NCBI RefSeq assembly: GCF_018143015.1
Contig: NC_054758.1
Location: 2,647,001 to 2,711,000, forward strand
DNA from: Lytechinus variegatus
Taxonomy: Eukaryota; Echinodermata; Echinoidea; Temnopleuroida; Toxopneustidae
Reading direction: 5' to 3'
DNA: 64,000 nucleotides
Below the pieces are notes generated by a model, which saw only the letters and a list, made by a program, of their open reading frames with translations, made no database searches and had not been told where the DNA came from. Positions 2,966-63,927 of the stretch are shown here, in pieces; the first letter of the stretch is position 1; each line of letters opens with the position of its first letter. The position numbers and the translations under genes were made by a program.

Positions 2966-3504
2966 TGATTTTTTTTCTATGTTCCTTTTAGAAGCGAGTG
3001 TTAAATAATTTGTGCAATTACCTGGCTTACATGCATGTCTTATTAAAATCATGTCGCTTATTTTTTTTACTATACAAAACATATATTTTCAACAAATAAT
3101 GATACAAATAGAATTTGTGTAAATTCATATATCAATTTCTAATAAATGAGAGCAGGGACTGCTCACAGGAACCTCCGCATCTTTACGTAGATCCATCTGC
3201 GGTTTAAGAGACTGCTATCACCACCTTTTCGGCCGCGACTTATTGCTATAAAAAATAATAAGTATAATGAAAAATTCCATCACTTGAACTGCCATGACAA
3301 AGCCATATGCTTCAGGGAGATGAGACTTATTAAGGGTCGTTTCATAAAGGAACAACGGCTTTATGGATTTATGGAAAGCCAAGTGTGACGCTCGACAAAT
3401 ATTAACAAGCCGTTCGTAAAGTCATGCGTAACCTTATTATCATGGACCTATTTGTAATAGGTCAATGCTTATATGAACAGCTTTAGGACCACACCAGTAA
3501 ACTG

Positions 3505-3861
3505 CCAATTCGTCTATTACCAACTCGTCCACTCATCGCAAGGTCTACTTTCATCTAGTCTAATGCCATTCCGTCCATCAACATTTCGTCTATAACAACC
3601 ATTTGGTCCGATAATCGCTTCGGCTTTCACCATTTCGTCTATGACCATTTCGTCTCATAATCAGTTGGTCTAATATCCATTTTCTTTTCATTCATTTCGC
3701 CTAGTCAACACTTATCCAAATAGACCAAATGGTTTATGAATTAAATAGACAAAATAGTGAGCAATTAGACCAAGTGGATAGCGGACGAATTGATGATAGA
3801 CCAAAATAATAGTAGACGAGTTGGTACATTAGACTAATGGCATTAGACCGTGACCAATTGG
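3505..3861 (+). mobile_element. TU-like foldback element, copy 1
   Basis: Both arms consist of degenerate ~15-nt units ending in GTCTA or GTCCA, such as CCATTTCGTCTA and CCATTTGGTCC. The right half carries the complements (TAGACGAGTTGG, TAGACCAAATGG), so the element folds on itself. Its left half aligns, units in the same order, with the reverse complement of the right half of the copy at 63355-63752. The shared centre reads roughly AACACTTAGTCCAATTAGACC-like sequence. Foldback ends made of tandem 15-bp units are known for sea-urchin TU elements; membership is inference from architecture. Confidence 0.75.
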
Positions 3862-3886
3862 AAATTAACCGAATAAATAATACCTC

Positions 3887-34800: not shown

Positions 34801-37800
34801 CCTTGCCAAAAGGGGCTAGGCCATGGTGGGATTCGAACATACAACCCTCTAATTATTTGTATGAATTAATAATAATAAAATAATTAATAAATAAGAAGTA
34901 TATGCCAAACCAATAATTCCCTTGGAAAAAACTTACTCAATAATAGAAAAATTAGCTATGCATTTTTGCTTGTCAACTGCTCTTGCAATAAGTGGCATCA
35001 TGAGTTGCGATAAACTTATTTTTGTCTTTGTTTATTCTTTGCATTTGGATCCGACTGCAAAGCCGAGTGTGTACCTTCATATGATGAAAGTTTATTTTTC
35101 TTGTTTTTCAGGTTTTTGGTTCTCGAGTGAGAGTAGATTCGACAGCTAAGATTGCAGAGCTTGAACTGGCTGAGAAAGAGAAAATGAAGGAGAAGGTTGA
35201 TAAGATTCTTAAACATGACATCAATGTTTTCATCAACAGGTATGCTATTTATTTCCATTCTGATTGAATAGATACATTGGGCTTAGATTAATTAGAGAGA
35301 CCCATAAAAGGGGCCAGGCTTGACTAGCATTCATGCTTTTTCTGGTTGTTTAGGTCGTTGCTTTTCTGTTTATTCATAACTGATTTGCTGTAAACTTTTA
35401 AATTGTAAGTATCTTTGTATTGGATAATAAATGAATTCATCCAATTCAATATTTTCCCATTTGTCGTAATAAGGAAATGTTCCCTGTCTAAGATGTAAAG
35501 GTATTTACTTTGTTATGATTCATGGTTGTGACTCTAGCTCAGGAACTTTGCTGTAATCCTGTCTTTATTGAATTCAAGATATATACCAGAAGGCCGTTTC
35601 ATAAAGCTCTCTGTGAGTTAAGAGTGGCTTTAACCCTAAATAGACTGGGCTATTTCGACACCTAAGAAGACTGGGGGGGGGCTGATTCAGCCCCCCTTAT
35701 GATCTCGGCCGTCGATAGCGCGATCGCGACGAAAATTGGCACACGCGTTACCTATGGCATTATCTACAAAACTATAACATCAAATTCTGCAAAAAATCTC
35801 ATGTCTCATTAATTATGCTAATTTATGCATAAAATCATAAGTTTGCTCTAATTAATAAAATAATGCCCCAGAAATGCTAATTTTTGTTTTGAGTACTCTA
35901 GATAAGCATTTGATCAAATTGATTTAAAAAAAATTTCAAAATCGCATTTATTTTCTTATGTATTCTATTGTTTTCTAAATTTCTTATGTATTTCTTTGTT
36001 TTTCGACTTTTTGTTTTTTATTGTTTTTTCAATGGAAATTGTCGTGGACTTTATTTTGACCATAAAAAAGATAAAATTAATTGATTTTAAGCAGTAAAAG
36101 GAAAAATAATGATACATTTATGAACTTTGGCTAAGAACACTATTTGCATTGGATTTGTACACAAATTCACGTTTTTGAGTAATTTTGGGTCTGCATGCAC
36201 TTACGAAATGTTGCGTAATTTCGGAACCGCGTACCCGGGGGTCACAATTTTGGTCTCAAAAGTTGCGGGAGACTTGAAAGTAAAAAGTCAGTGAGAGACG
36301 AGGTCAAAAAATTTTGTGCGGCGGATTTATTGCGAAAAATGTCAAGGGGGGGGCTGAATCAGCCCCCCCCCAGTCTTTTTAGGGTTAAGAATGACTGGTG
36401 ATCCTTTCTAATGCGCAAAACCATCGCTAATGAATCATTCGCCATAAGAAAGGATCACCACTCGCTCTTAACTTACGAACAGCTTTATGAAACACCCACC
36501 TGGTCTGTGGTTCTTTTCTCAATGCATGACAGGTCCATCACAAACATACAATACTTTAATGGCATTTTTTTAATGAAGTCATGTACTGCAAGTGCTTTGT
36601 ATCCTCATGGGAAAAAGTGCTATATAAATCCAGCTATTATTATTACAGTTGTGCACATTTCATTTCATGCGCATTTATTGGGCTTAACTTTTCCAAAACT
36701 ATATGATGACAAACATGAAATGCAATCGCACACGACTGACGGGGAATAACTTTCTTGGTATCGCATCGCAATTTGCTCCACATTTTTGAAAGACTGCTGT
36801 GCATAAAGTCTTATGTAGAGCATATTTTTACAAAGGACTGTACATGACTGAGTTGAGAGCTTTTCTCTTATGACCAAAAATGCTATTCAAATTTATAAAG
36901 GATAATTATTCCCTTGGCAGAACATGGTAAATATAGGAAAAATTGCACTGGTTTGAAACCGTACCTTTGTTTGCCATTGCGCCCTCATATTCTTCCCAAT
37001 TCTTTTACATATCTTCCCTTGTCTAGGCAACTGATCTATAACTACCCAGAACAGTTGTTTGCTGACCAGGGCGTGATGGCCATCGAGCATGCAGACTTTG
37101 AGGGTGTAGAGCGTCTGGCCTTGGTGACCGGTGGAGAGATTGTCTCTACCTTTGACCGCCCTGACCTGGTCAAGCTTGGCCGATGTGATCTCATCGAAGA
37201 AGTCATGATTGGTAAGTATTATTGTTATGCGTCTCCTGGGCAGGAGAAGCAAAGGTCCACGGGTCTCTTTTTCCAATGTAAAGGGAAAAAGGAAAGCAGT
37301 TACACAAAGGATAATATTTCCAATTTAAAGAATGAAAACTGATCAAATTTCATTGCATAAATCTCATTGTCCTGGGGAGCAGTCCATGAAACAAAGGGTC
37401 AGTACTGTTCACTGGCACCTGTTATAAGCTACTGAAATCCTTGCATCTGATTGGACGAGACCAAAAAAGCCTGAGAAAATCATTGTCGGAAGTCTGCATG
37501 ACATGCTTCCCTGATTGAGTTCAAGGATTGAATGTTAGTGTAAACCATTTTTTTTTCAAAGTTTTTATTGAACAAATCATCCGACATCGCAATAATTAAA
37601 AAATGATTTCGATCAAAAACACATATTGAATGTCAATGTTGATTCTTTTTGCTTTCTCTTCCTTCAGGTGAGGACAAACTGATCAAGTTCTCTGGTGTAG
37701 CTCTTGGTGAGGCTTGCACCGTTGTACTGAGAGGAGCCACCCAACAGATTCTTGACGAGGTCGAGCGTTCGCTTCATGACGCCCTCTGTGTCTTATCCCA

Positions 37801-40800
37801 GACAGTCAAGACCACTCGCACAGTGCCAGGAGGAGGTAGGGCTTTCAAATATTGTTCTGTGTGTACTACTGTCGTGTTGCGAGCTAGAAAGGCATGGAAT
37901 AATGTTTGTTTGCCTTAAACAGAGAGGAGAAAGTAGCTGTTAGTAGGTTAAATGATATTTTTTAAAAGATGAATTGTATAAAAGGCCTTTTTTGGTGTCT
38001 TTTGTTGTTTGTGTGGTGAAGACTCCTGCCATATTAATTATCATAGAGGTGTATGCATATATGATGCAGATGTCAGCGACCACTTTCAGAGGGAACTTGA
38101 ACACTTTCATACATTCATTTATGTATTCTTTGTTAAAATTCAAACCTGTAATGGTTTTTTCTTTTTTCTATTTCCAATTTGCTCTGAAGCATCTTAAGCA
38201 TCTAATTAAGATGGAAATGCGATATATAAATCCAGGGAATAATTTTCAAAGTTATTGCATTGCGATTTCTTCCACATTTTTTAGAGACTACTGCACAAAA
38301 TGTCTTTAGTGTAGGGGAAAAAATGCAGTTGAGAGGTATTCTCTTTTGTCTCAAAGTGCAAATCAAATTTGGTAAGCGGAAGTATTCCCTGAAGTCCTAT
38401 TTATTTATCATTGTTATATTTATTAGGTGCATCTGAGATGTTGATGGCTAATGCCGTCTGTGAGTTAGCGGCTAGGACACCAGGCAAAGAGGCCGTTGCA
38501 ATCGAGGCATTCGCCAGGGCTCTAAGACAGGTAAGACAGTAATTTTCTGGAGATTTGGCAGTCTTTGGGTTGTAAATAATAATATAATAATAATGACGGT
38601 ATATTTACCCAGGGTAGCCACTTCAGTTCTGAAAAATGTTCTCCCAGCTGGGTCTGCTATTACCATCACCCCAGCTTTAGCTTGTTTACCTATAGGCGCT
38701 CATGCATTCAAGGAATTTCTTCCTACCGTGTACCCATTCACCTCACCTGGGTTGAGTGCAGCACAATGTGGGTTAATTTCTTGCTGAAGGAAAACACACC
38801 ATGGCTGGGATTCGAACCCATGTCCCTCTGATTGAAAGACGAGAGTCGTAACCACTAGACCACGACGCCCCAGGCTGGAGGTCTATTGTCACAGGAGTTG
38901 AGTGTATATTACATCCTTGACCTGGCAGTGGTGTAGGCATAGATTTTGACAGTGCAGTTGGGAAGCCAGCTTATATTTCATGGGTTTATGTAAATTAGCC
39001 AAATCTAGATTCTTGATGATATAGTGACATTGACATTTAACTTTGATTGTAAAGACGACATAAAAAATAGCTATTAGCTACAACAACATGGTTGAAATAT
39101 AATGCTAGTCTTGGTAAGGCTGCTGTTGATGGTGGTGACAACGACAAAATTTGTATATCTTTCAATCTCTCTAGCTACCAACCATCATAGCTGATAATGC
39201 TGGATACGATTCGGCTGAACTCGTCTCTCAGCTCAGAGCGGCACACACGGAAGGAAACTACAAGATGGGACTGAGTAAGTCTTATATATCACATTTCTAG
39301 TCCTTCTCTATGAAAAGAAGATAGATTGTATCACTTTCTTTATGAAGATTGAATTATTGTTGTAGCAATTTAGGGAGAACCTTCCATAGCTGCTTATTAT
39401 TGGTTTGGGGGTGGCTTGCCACATATGATGAGACTCTCTATGATTACATTTACCTTGACTAATTCTTGTTATCATTTGAAGTGTTCATGTTCACTAGTTT
39501 TATGATTTTGTGTTCATTCCTATGTAAACAGGCATTATATTCTCTCGATTAAATCTGAATATTTTTAAAAAATTTTTTTATAAATTATCTTATTTTTTTT
39601 AAAATACTTTTTACGTGAGATCCAGTGCCCAAGGACATTTTCTTGCTGTTTTTACTGTTTTTTAAAGTCAAATGAAAAAGCTATCATGCAGACTCGCCTT
39701 GAAAATAAATTCACTTTCAATTTCTTTTCTATGCAAAAGCATGTAACCCCGAATGGTTCGCCTGGGACTTCAGCGGTAACTTAGCGAACCTCAGCTATTC
39801 TTCAGATTTTTTTTCAGATGGGAATATGTCGGGTAAAGCGATTAAAAACACTCGTTAAAGGTGGTATATGAATGCAACATATTATTATCTCACGGAAGCA
39901 TTCTTAACATTTGTTGTATTGTTTTGTTTATAGATATGAATAATGGTACTATAGGCAATACCATGGAACTTGGAGTACTGGAGTCGTTCCAGGTGAAACG
40001 TCAGGTAGTCCTCAGTGCATCGGAAGCCGCAGAGATGATCCTACGAGTTGATAACATTATCAAGGCTGCACCAAGGTGAGCTTCGCATTCACATTAGGAG
40101 GGAATATATGATGAATTATGGCTGAAATGATAGTAGTGGTAGTATTAGTGGAAGAGGTAGACTGGTAGTAGTGGTGGTGGTTGTAGTGGTGTTTGGAGAA
40201 GTAAAAGTCCACATAGTCATCATCATCATCATCATTGTCAATATGGACACCGTAATCATGGACATCATGATCATCAACATTTTAACCACCATGACCATCC
40301 TCATCGTCATCATCATTGTCACAATCACCATTATCATCATCATCACCATCATCATCACCACCATTATCATCATCTTCATTATCATCACCCACCATTACCA
40401 TCATCATCATAATCATCTTCATCATCATCGTCATCTTCATCATCCTCATCATCATCATCATAACCATCATCAGCACCATCATCATCACCATCATCATCAC
40501 CATCATCAGCACCATCACCATCGTCATCACCATCATCAGCACCATCATCATCACCATCATCACCATCATCACCATCCTCATCATAATCATCCTCATCATA
40601 ATCATCATCATCCCAATCATCATCATTTTCTTCATAATCACTATACCATCTGAATTTCATACCAATGTACTCAAAGCGACATACCAAGTATAATCTCACA
40701 TTTTCCTTCTATTTTGAAATAAATGGAAATGAGAGTTGAAGAGGAAGTAGGCCGCATTAAAAACTTTTATCTATTCTACATCCACATGTCATCCCCAACA

Positions 40801-61600: not shown

Positions 61601-63927
61601 CTAGAATGCTACAGCGAGACAATATATAATAGAACGGAAAGAGACAATAGACGCTTAATGGCGAGCTGTGATTGGCCGTCAAGGTAAGCAATATAGGCTT
61701 TAATAGTACCTGCCATAAATTCAAGCGAAGCAACCGAACACAAGGGTTCTTACGAACTCCTTCTGGCGGCAGAACTTATTGAACAAGTTTGAAAAGGGTT
61801 AAAAGCAACTGATGTCATTCAATCTGATTGGTTGACAGTATCAAATTTGTAACAAAAATCTTGCATTTGCATGTTTTTATAAAACATTTCCCAGACTTAT
61901 TCTAAATTTATAACAAAACATAATTGAACTATTTTGAGACAAATGAAGTTATTTCTAACAACTACAGAAAAACTTTGTACAGAGTAATTTGTTTTCATTT
62001 TAAAATTAACTGCGATTCATTATAAATAATCAGGATTTATTTTTAGAAACCAATTACACTGTTGTATCAAAACTGTCAATAAACCTTGATATCTTTCATC
62101 TCTAGGTCAATGTTATGAGCACATTCAGACTTTGATTTCAAATACATGTACATGTATATCATTGTGAGTGGATGCCATATGTCTATTAAAACCAACATTA
62201 ACATTTGCATAGATCGCTTGAGTGTTGATATCACAAACAAGGACTTTGTATTGAAGGTCATAACATAATAGCATGTGACAAACATTGATAACAAACAAAG
62301 GAAATGTTCAAAACAAAGTAAAGGTGTGCTGGTCATGTGATTAATATCACACTCATTGCAGTTCAACATCCCATGGAATTTTCCACTCAGTGCTCTTGAC
62401 CATGAATTTTGTTCGTTCTCTTTGCTTTGCCTCATTGGGTTATACCAAGTTCTGTGTTGGTGCTGATTTGGTGATACAAGCACAATTTAAATTGCTTCCC
62501 CTAGCCCCCGAAACCATTCTGACATGTACTTTTAGTCCAGATCACATGACGGACATCTTGACACTTAATTAGGCCCATAATCAGGGGCCCGTCTTCCAAA
62601 AAGTACTGATTGATCCGATTAATCATAACTCTATGGAAATCCATCAGTGTCATACATTTTTCTACAAAAAATTTACACAATGTCCTTTGTAAACAAAGAG
62701 AAGCACACTGAATTTTCAAGAAAATAATGAATGCATGAATATTCATCATAATTAGAAAATATTTTGAACAAACATGCGTAATAGATGATGACGTTGCTGG
62801 CATTCCATAGTTACGATTGATTGGATCAATCGCAACTCTTTGAAAGACAGGGCCCTGAAGTCCAGTTTTACTTTATAGTCCAACTCTGTGATAAAACTAT
62901 GGAAAGCCAAACATGTCAAAATTTTGTTTATATTGCATGCGTATTATGTTTACTGTGCTCTTTGAGAATTCTTTAATGGTGAAGAAATCTATCTCATCTT
63001 CCCAGGCATGTATAAATGATTTGAGAGTCGAATGATCCAAAAAATTGAACCTCTATTCACATCACAATTGATTATCCTTAAGTTAAACCACAACTTTACA
63101 TCAGAATTGATCAAAAGCAACTGAAGTGAAATTTCTCCCTGTACTGGAAGTTTGGTGCTATTTCAACATCAAATTTACACCAACACTATAAGTTAACATG
63201 AAAATAACTGACAATCCACATTTCCCTGATCGATGTAATGCCATTAGTGATTAGAGGGAAGTTTTTTTTAAAGAAAAGCTGTATTTTAGAATTATAGCAA
63301 CGCTGGCCCTCTCATATTACTTTCCCCTGTGTATTCCTCAAGTGGTTTATATTTCCAATTCGTTTAATGCAAATTCGTCCAATTGCCAACTCGTTTTCTA
63401 TCATTTGGTCTACCATCAGTTAGTCCACTCAGCAGATGGTCTACTTTCATTTATTATTTATGCCATTCCGTCTAATATAACCAGTTGGTCCAATAGCCAT
63501 TTAGTCCATATACAATCTGGTCTAATTGGACTAAGTGTTAATTGTGCAAACGAATGAAAATGAAATGGAAATTCGACCAACTGGTTTTGAGATGAAATAG
63601 TCATAGACGAAATGGAGATTAGACAAAGTGATGATTGGACTGGTTAATGGACCAAATGGTTGTTAGACGACATGTTGATGGACAGAATGGCATTAGACTA
63701 AATGAAAGTAGACCATGTAGTGAGTAGACAAGTTGGCAGTAGACGAATTGGCAATGCACCGTTCAAGTTACGTACCTGACGTAATCACCGTTTGGGTCTG
63801 TCCGCCTACCAAACTTGACAGGGCAGTAGCAATGGAAGAACTGTTGATAAAATGAGCTGCAGGATAACCAGATCCAGTTCCCAGCGTTGACGCTCCAGTC
63901 GGCATCCAACAGAAACTCATCAAAGAC
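55609..63927 (-). CDS. CRY: Vertebrate-type (repressor-class) cryptochrome, last four coding exons
   Basis: Encodes the C-terminal half of a CRY1/CRY2-like cryptochrome, a flavoprotein relative of photolyases. In animals this class represses CLOCK:BMAL1. Coding exons in gene order: 63776-63927, 60917-61014, 57076-57180, 55609-56246. They join in frame for 330 codons plus stop; the gene continues past the window. Residues 1-50 are the end of the FAD-binding domain: [20 protein letters not shown], then FHCYCP and [10 protein letters not shown]. Next come [18 protein letters not shown] and [19 protein letters not shown], followed by the helix [17 protein letters not shown] that contacts PER and FBXL3 in mammals. 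The conserved core closes at GILGSVPS. The remaining ~205 residues are a low-complexity tail with a Met-rich patch, a Gly-rich patch and a Gln/His run. This matches CRY1/2 rather than 6-4 photolyase or Drosophila-type CRY. A variant signal ATTAAA lies at 55394-55399. Confidence 0.93.
55737..55835 (-). repeat. CAG/CAA trinucleotide tract in cryptochrome coding sequence
   Basis: Encodes a Gln/His-rich run ([20 protein letters not shown], then further Gln) in the C-terminal tail. CAG and CAA are mixed and interrupted by CAT/CAC and CCG/CCA codons, which should make it more stable than a pure repeat. Confidence 0.9.
56382..56967. mobile_element. TTAA MITE in a cryptochrome intron, interrupted by a SINE
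   Basis: TTAA at 56378-56381 and 56968-56971; ends GCCCAGAG and CTCTGGGC. Arms: GATTGCACTAAGATCCGACT on the left, the complement of GATTGCACTTAGATCCGTCT on the right, with TGTAACAA in both. The left arm is broken between GCCCAGAG and CAGTGCACGCTATGC by the SINE at about 56390-56620. Confidence 0.8.
56390..56620 (+). mobile_element. tRNA-derived SINE (Met-like head) inserted in a MITE
   Basis: Head with A box TGGTCCAGTGGTTAGC, loop CTCATAA (Met-type anticodon CAT) and B box GAGTTTGAGTCCC, closed by AACTCTGCCA. The body includes GGCCGGAGAGTGATCTCTG and TGGGTATACCAGC. The B box departs from the tRNA consensus and a SINE body follows, so it is not a tRNA gene. The 3' edge is approximate. Confidence 0.72.
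57181..59329. other. Cryptochrome intron, left part; nothing recognised besides a hairpin
   Basis: Short ORFs only. G-rich sequence lies at about 57298-57360. A 22-bp imperfect hairpin at 58494-58550 is listed separately. Confidence 0.45.
58494..58550. other. 22-bp hairpin with A-rich loop in a cryptochrome intron
   Basis: TCACCT (58494-58499) pairs with AGGTGA (58545-58550). A-T pairing follows with a one-base bulge, then TACATGTACATGGAT (58501-58515) pairs with ATCCATGTGCATGTA (58528-58542) with one mismatch or wobble. The loop is 12 nt, mostly A. Structure is seen directly; expression is unknown. Confidence 0.6.
59330..59830. other. CpG-richer segment inside a cryptochrome intron
   Basis: CpG is clearly more frequent than in flanking intron sequence, and no repeat used elsewhere in the window is present. 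No ORF or splice-bounded exon was recognised. It could be a regulatory element or an unannotated non-coding exon; neither can be shown here. Confidence 0.4.
59875..60215. repeat. G/A-rich polypurine tract
   Basis: A strongly strand-biased GGGA/GGAAGG tract of about 340 bp on the plus strand in a cryptochrome intron. The Ser/Pro/Leu-rich minus-strand ORF of 142 codons over it is a composition artefact. Confidence 0.85.
60402..60520. mobile_element. Small foldback MITE, ACACAAAG...CTTTGTGT family
   Basis: Left GGGCCCATTACACAAAGGTC with AGCAATCAATCGTA; right TGATTGATAAACTTTGTGTT with ACAGGCCGC. Similar to 3887-4016 and 54266-54400. Confidence 0.6.
61320..61555. mobile_element. Right half of the GGGATGGTCCGGGCTGAAA MITE family
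   Basis: Collinear with the right arm of 10107-11267: GATGTGACATCATCAGCCCA, ATTCAATAACTTTG, TTATCCGATTTTGATGAAAT and TCTTCAGCCCAGAGTATCCC at the end. The left arm is absent. It lies in a cryptochrome intron. Confidence 0.7.
62584..62856. mobile_element. Foldback MITE, GGGCCCTGTCTTACAAAGAG family, copy in a cryptochrome intron
   Basis: Left end GGGGCCCGTCTTCCAAAAAG with GATTGATCCGATTAATCATA, middle TGTCCTTTGTAAACAAAGAG, right end GCAACTCTTTGAAAGACAGG. About 273 bp, non-coding. Confidence 0.8.
63355..63752 (-). mobile_element. TU-like foldback element, copy 2
   Basis: Degenerate ~15-nt units ending in GTCTA/GTCCA in the left half and their complements (TAGACGAAATGG, GGACCAAATGG) in the right half. 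Reversed, it is collinear with 3505-3861: CCAATTCGTCTA, TAATGCCATTCTGTCCATCA, CAACCATTTGGTCC. It ends 23 bp before the cryptochrome exon at 63776, next to the splice donor. Confidence 0.78.

Follow-up and report, generated by a model that had tools for sequence, protein, structure and literature searches.

TU elements are foldback elements of sea urchins in which the outer domain of each arm consists of ~15-bp tandem units; they generate an 8-bp target duplication, are larger than the elements described below and have a separate inner arm domain and a middle segment. TU elements of Strongylocentrotus purpuratus were reportedly described by Liebermann in 1983. Our literature search on sea-urchin TU foldback transposons found no TU sequence.

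The nearest described analogue of the present elements is Tm1 of the nematode Meloidogyne, a Mutator/Foldback element of the Phantom subclass, especially its MITE-like form Tm1-ML. The ends of Tm1 are asymmetric (CGGTTAA), its arms consist of 13–15-bp tandem units, and 45 of 53 complete elements have target duplications of 8–10 bp, mostly of 9 bp; a Phantom-type transposase is present in one copy, and most copies are non-coding and MITE-like (in M. incognita 30 of 39, with a mean length of 431 bp) (PMC3169594). The target duplications of Mutator/Phantom (MULE) elements are given as 8–11 bp (PMC6446971), and long Mutator inverted repeats are reported to contain transposase-binding sites (PMC3310237). 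In the Drosophila element Galileo, which belongs to the P superfamily, the THAP domain of the transposase binds sites recurring in the element's arms; a binding role for the arm repeats of Foldback/Phantom elements is called untested in the same source (PMC3688188).

The window, the whole 64,000-nucleotide stretch of Lytechinus variegatus DNA analysed here, contains two foldback copies of ~400 bp, A and B. We regard them, with a probability of about 0.85, as members of a high-copy, non-autonomous class II cut-and-paste foldback/MITE family in which the arm units are putative transposase-binding sites. Like TU, the family has arms of ~15-bp units, 11 per arm in its consensus, and an 8-bp target duplication, but the inner domain and middle segment of TU are absent from these short copies, and in the consensus the last unit is followed by a ~45-bp centre and then by the other arm. 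The element family is likely new, whereas its transposon type is already known; its likeness to TU is one of described structure. With Tm1, the family shares asymmetric tips, arms of short units, a target duplication within the 8–10-bp range and short non-coding copies (PMC3169594). However, the unit is CGATTCAGTATCCGC in Tm1 and CCANTTNGTCYA here, the end sequences are also unlike, the duplications are mostly of 9 bp in Tm1 and of 8 bp here, and one transposase-bearing copy is described for Tm1, whereas none was found here among the loci inspected. Because the unit and tip sequences differ, the likeness to Tm1 is one of build rather than of shown kinship. The 8-bp duplication also fits the Mutator/Phantom range (PMC6446971). 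Galileo resembles the family in its internally repetitive arms, but these are 0.5–1.2 kb in length with long repeats rather than ~15-bp units, and its P-type transposase is known (PMC3688188).

Structure of elements A and B and of their unit arrays

Both elements are complete, their ends having been set by alignment to other genomic copies. The boundaries proposed in the preliminary description (3505–3861 and 63355–63752) are 9–12 bp too short per end. That description also treated the two intervals as a pair, which holds insofar as A and B are related and lie in opposite orientation; however, A and B are independent copies 60 kb apart, each of which contains both arms, and do not form the two halves of a single element. 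The features are as follows.

3496–3870, + strand: element A, complete, left-type end first, AGTAAACTGCC ... GGAAATTAACC, by alignment with genomic copies
3496–3674, + strand: left arm of A, with GTC cores at positions 17, 32, 48, 63, 78, 93, 111, 142, 157 and 173 of the element
3675–3719 (approximate boundary), + strand: non-repetitive centre of A, from its sequence compared with the consensus
3720–3870 (approximate boundary), − strand: right arm of A, carrying its units on the opposite strand
63336–63343, + strand: left target duplication of B, CCTCAAGT, 6/8 to the right copy
63344–63760, − strand: element B, complete, right-type end first on the + strand, GGTTTATATTTCC ... GGCAATGCACC
63761–63768, + strand: right target duplication of B, GTTCAAGT, 6/8 to the left copy
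63776–63927, − strand: putative cryptochrome/photolyase exon, a 51-aa part of which matches PF03441 FAD_binding_7 (E = 1.2e-13)

In the self-alignment of the window, A and B match in opposite orientation (3503–3746 with 63753–63499, 79% over 258, E = 1.75e-41). The left end of A agrees with the end model at 32/36 positions and the ends of B at 31/36 and 32/36; the right end of A, broken by an insertion, falls below the cut-off. The target duplication is imperfect around B (6/8) and absent from A, whose flanks match at 1/8. When one mismatch was allowed among the nine informative positions, the motif CANTTNGTCYA occurred 17 times in A (11 on the + strand, 6 on the − strand) and 19 times in B (8 and 11, respectively). 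Eight Markov-1 resamplings of the window yielded at most 3 motifs in any 375 bp, and clusters outside A and B never exceeded 2 in a scan of the whole window. Folded as single-stranded DNA, A gave a z of −3.6 (1/100 shuffles folding equally well) and B a z of −8.4 (0/100). The motif clusters, the opposite-orientation alignment and the folding together bear out the earlier proposal that the structure is a real foldback built of ~15-nt units. Stop-to-stop frames of at least 90 codons are absent from A; a 100-codon stop-to-stop frame (63255–63554) overlaps B and its flank.

The architecture of the arms is best seen in a consensus of 401 bp derived from 45 copies, to which single copies are 86–95% identical. 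Each consensus arm contains 11 units, 15–16 bp apart (mean pitch 15.5 bp), and the distances of the units from the tip agree between the two ends within 1 bp, the GTC cores being located at 17, 32, 48, 63, 78, 93, 109, 125, 141, 156 and 172 in the left arm and, in the right arm numbered inward from its tip, at 17, 32, 48, 63, 78, 94, 109, 124, 140, 156 and 172. The last units of the opposite arms are separated by the ~45-bp centre. Among the 45 individual copies, each left-arm core position recurs in 18–32 and the first five right-arm positions recur in 22–40 (28 at position 63, 22 at 78); the right-arm core at 94 is found in 19, and farther in the cores scatter, with at most 11 of the 45 copies sharing any exact position. 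The even unit spacing is therefore clear in the consensus and in left arms, whereas individual right arms scatter beyond about 94 bp.

Four positions (C-6, G0, T+1 and C+2) are invariant in all 22 consensus units, and A-5, T-2 and A+4 are present in 21 of the 22; the remaining positions are loose, with -4 and -9 nearly random. In 9 of the 11 ordinal unit pairs, the two arms have the same base (T or C) at +3. When the GTC core was left out, arm-to-arm unit identity was 0.66 in register and 0.62 in the best shifted register (permutation p = 0.064), and strict unit-by-unit homology of a copy's two arms is thus not established. The resemblance among units could partly stem from past unit duplication. 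Among copies, variability was 0.06–0.09 at motif positions and 0.115 in spacers (non-CpG, p = 0.043), which may reflect subfamily history or a weak constraint after insertion.

Genome-wide dispersal and evidence for transposition

The genome searched comprises 869.6 Mb in 33 contigs. With A as DNA query, at least 52 matches were obtained, 40 of 4,015 candidates having been scored. With up to 3 mismatches allowed, the left-end 34-mer matched at 1,981 sites (977 + 1004) and the right-end 34-mer at 1,494 (761 + 733), figures that count ends rather than elements and are inflated by duplicated regions; the reversed-pattern controls of both 34-mers yielded 0 matches. The copies are dispersed over many contigs, and their ends are fixed and asymmetric (GGTAAATTGCC... 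on the left and ...GGAAATAAACC on the right).

Left and right ends were paired by script (opposite-type ends 200–800 bp apart) at 57 of 62 places, which consist of 60 loci plus A and B, locus L001 being A itself. A was left unpaired owing to the insertion in its right end, and B because its slice stopped at the window edge; at the other unpaired loci, the left end is degraded (L031) or the element is complete by BLAST (L057). The consensus set was drawn from the 62 places by omitting three unpaired loci (L001, L031 and L057), 11 duplicate or poor copies and three long copies; A and B were included by hand coordinates, and L019 and L023, which represent one duplicated region, were both kept. 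The three long copies (L044, L046 and L054; 702, 558 and 503 bp) contain unrelated inserts or replaced stretches and no gene. No facing left and right ends 1–15 kb apart were seen by eye among about 100 of the 1,494 + 1,981 end places.

Similarity between the two flanks peaks at exactly 8 bp, with a mean match of 0.56 at k = 8 compared with 0.23–0.35 at k = 4–7 and 9–12. Among 44 independent copies (the 57 paired copies without 7 from duplicated regions and 6 in which the ends were poorly reached), the 8-bp duplication matched at 6/8 or better in 19, at 7/8 or better in 14 and at 8/8 in 6, whereas shuffled flanks reached at least 6/8 in 0.79 copies on average and in 5 at most. When the 6 badly ended copies were kept, good target duplications were present in 19 of 50. 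One empty site was also recovered: the joined flanks of the L046 element align across the junction to L036:1050–1227 (80% over 180 bp). The L046 element is flanked by two copies of GATTAATC and the empty site has a single copy of the related GATTAAAT, so that the element interrupts a repeat of which an uninterrupted paralogous version is present in L036. This target repeat is presumably tRNA-derived, judging from a motif. The survey thus recovered what the suggested mobile family of short foldback elements would predict, namely more copies whose ends agree, target duplications and one empty site. A DNA transposase that cuts with an 8-bp stagger is a well-supported agent of the dispersal, although it counts against this reading that only 19 of the 44 copies, and not A, have a good target duplication.

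In a comparison of 43 copies, opposite arms had an identity of 0.627 when taken from one copy and of 0.626 when taken from different copies, and same-side identity was 0.79 for left arms and 0.71 for right arms (shuffled sequence, 0.53). Since the arms within a copy are no more alike than those of different copies, the copies derive from a master in which the arms had already diverged. This bears out the earlier view, reached from two copies alone, that the array was copied as one element and did not arise by local expansion.

Candidate transposases and a possible role of the units

P, Merlin, KDZ and hAT elements commonly produce 8-bp target duplications, and a transposase of one of these types, or an undescribed one, is a credible mover with not quite an even chance of being correct. 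The duplication size fits all four, and profile searches of the genome returned 42 P-type (PF21787) and 51 Merlin-type (PF12762) matches, including genes with long open frames of both types, as well as two pieces of KDZ (PF18758) at a single locus. Galileo provides a P-type element with repeat-bearing arms (PMC3688188). However, family arms were found neither near 6 of the 51 Merlin loci nor within 2 kb on the 3′ side of 11 of the 42 P matches, and they are not part of the KDZ locus. The family's ends begin with GG, unlike the CA/TA-type ends of hAT elements.

A Mutator-like transposase of Phantom type (FLYWCH + MULE), as in Tm1, is an alternative mover of only slightly lower probability. Tm1 combines asymmetric ends, arms of 13–15-bp units, 8–10-bp duplications and MITE-like members (PMC3169594), and FLYWCH + MULE proteins are encoded in the genome at two loci (L074 and L075). 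Nevertheless, family arms are absent from these two loci and from the 3.0–4.8 kb fetched around 14 of the 31 MULE matches (PF10551), and the unit and end sequences of Tm1 are unlike those of the family. Host-made arrays, whether clusters of protein-binding sites or local tandem/satellite expansion with no transposon, would account for the regularity of the units and the slightly lower variability of the motif than of the spacers among copies, but they are highly improbable. The target duplications and the empty site already contradict them, and the fixed ends, the dispersal over many contigs and the lack of arm homogenisation within copies are also at odds with them.

Within the inspected transposase loci, the best match to the family's ends was 22/36, and motif clusters did not exceed 4 per 375 bp except at the KDZ locus, whereas each of the 60 family loci reached at least 9. 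The KDZ locus (L061) contains 10 motifs in 375 bp, with units on both strands, and these belong to a decayed foldback built of similar units (L061:350–680), which lies about 0.8 kb from the KDZ piece at the only KDZ match locus of the genome and which we read as a separate insertion. The motif score of 4 at one P locus (L085) is due to an unrelated minisatellite with units of roughly 90 bp (L085:850–2001), which directly follows the P-type transposase frame. Two local groups of transposase matches were also observed, each on one strand: a cluster of ten Merlin-type PF12762 matches in 13 kb (G000:C8:32784114–32796853) and six P-type PF21787 matches in 12 kb (G000:C6:18108691–18120167).

For the non-autonomous cut-and-paste family that we favour, we propose the following mechanism. 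A transposase encoded elsewhere would bind the CANTTNGTCYA units of both arms, several molecules per arm, pair the two element ends and cut at the GGT termini, and the excised element would then be joined into an 8-bp staggered break. At a pitch of 15.5 bp, close to one and a half turns of the helix, neighbouring cores would face opposite sides of the DNA. Specificity would come from many weak sites per end, beyond the reach of a single short site. That the units serve as transposase-binding sites is suggested by their position-specific conservation and, by analogy, by the Galileo and Mutator precedents. A more speculative and rather improbable version is that the arms form a phased scaffold with eleven one-and-a-half-turn sites per end, placed equally far from either tip, on which an undescribed transposase would assemble as a two-faced filament, recognition being by periodicity and not by one end sequence.

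Foldbacks with unit-array arms occur with different transposase classes, and the role of the units is mostly untested. The present family offers >1,000 natural copies with a sharp motif, regularly pitched units and a defined target-duplication size, and the idea of units as transposase sites is therefore directly testable once the partner is found. Copies are also located close to gene parts, as with B, which starts 15 bp into an intron of a putative cryptochrome-type gene, counted from the splice donor. Apart from these points, it is an ordinary transposon family.

Genes and repeats around the elements

B is located in the intron that follows the putative cryptochrome/photolyase exon, with the splice sites read from the sequence. 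Elsewhere in the window, an exon on the + strand (37643–37915) matches the TCP-1/cpn60 chaperonin family (E = 7.2e-17), and two other long inverted repeat pairs were identified (35630–36388/45902–46646, 86% over 764; 17742–18138/44804–45201, 91% over 398). In several cases, an insertion of the family is found twice on one contig, megabases apart, with flanks 87–99% similar: L038/L039, L043/L045 and L028/L047 on contig C2, L055/L056 on C3 and L019/L023 on C4. A bindin search likewise gave four genome matches (best E = 4.0e-66), including two places 6 Mb apart on one contig (C13, 18.60 and 24.95 Mb). Bindin is an echinoid protein, and its presence supports an echinoid host; 14 named control genomes yielded 0 matches, a control that does not by itself set echinoids apart from other animals. 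The doubled insertions and the doubled bindin would be explained either by segmental duplication or by haplotype copies left over in the assembly.
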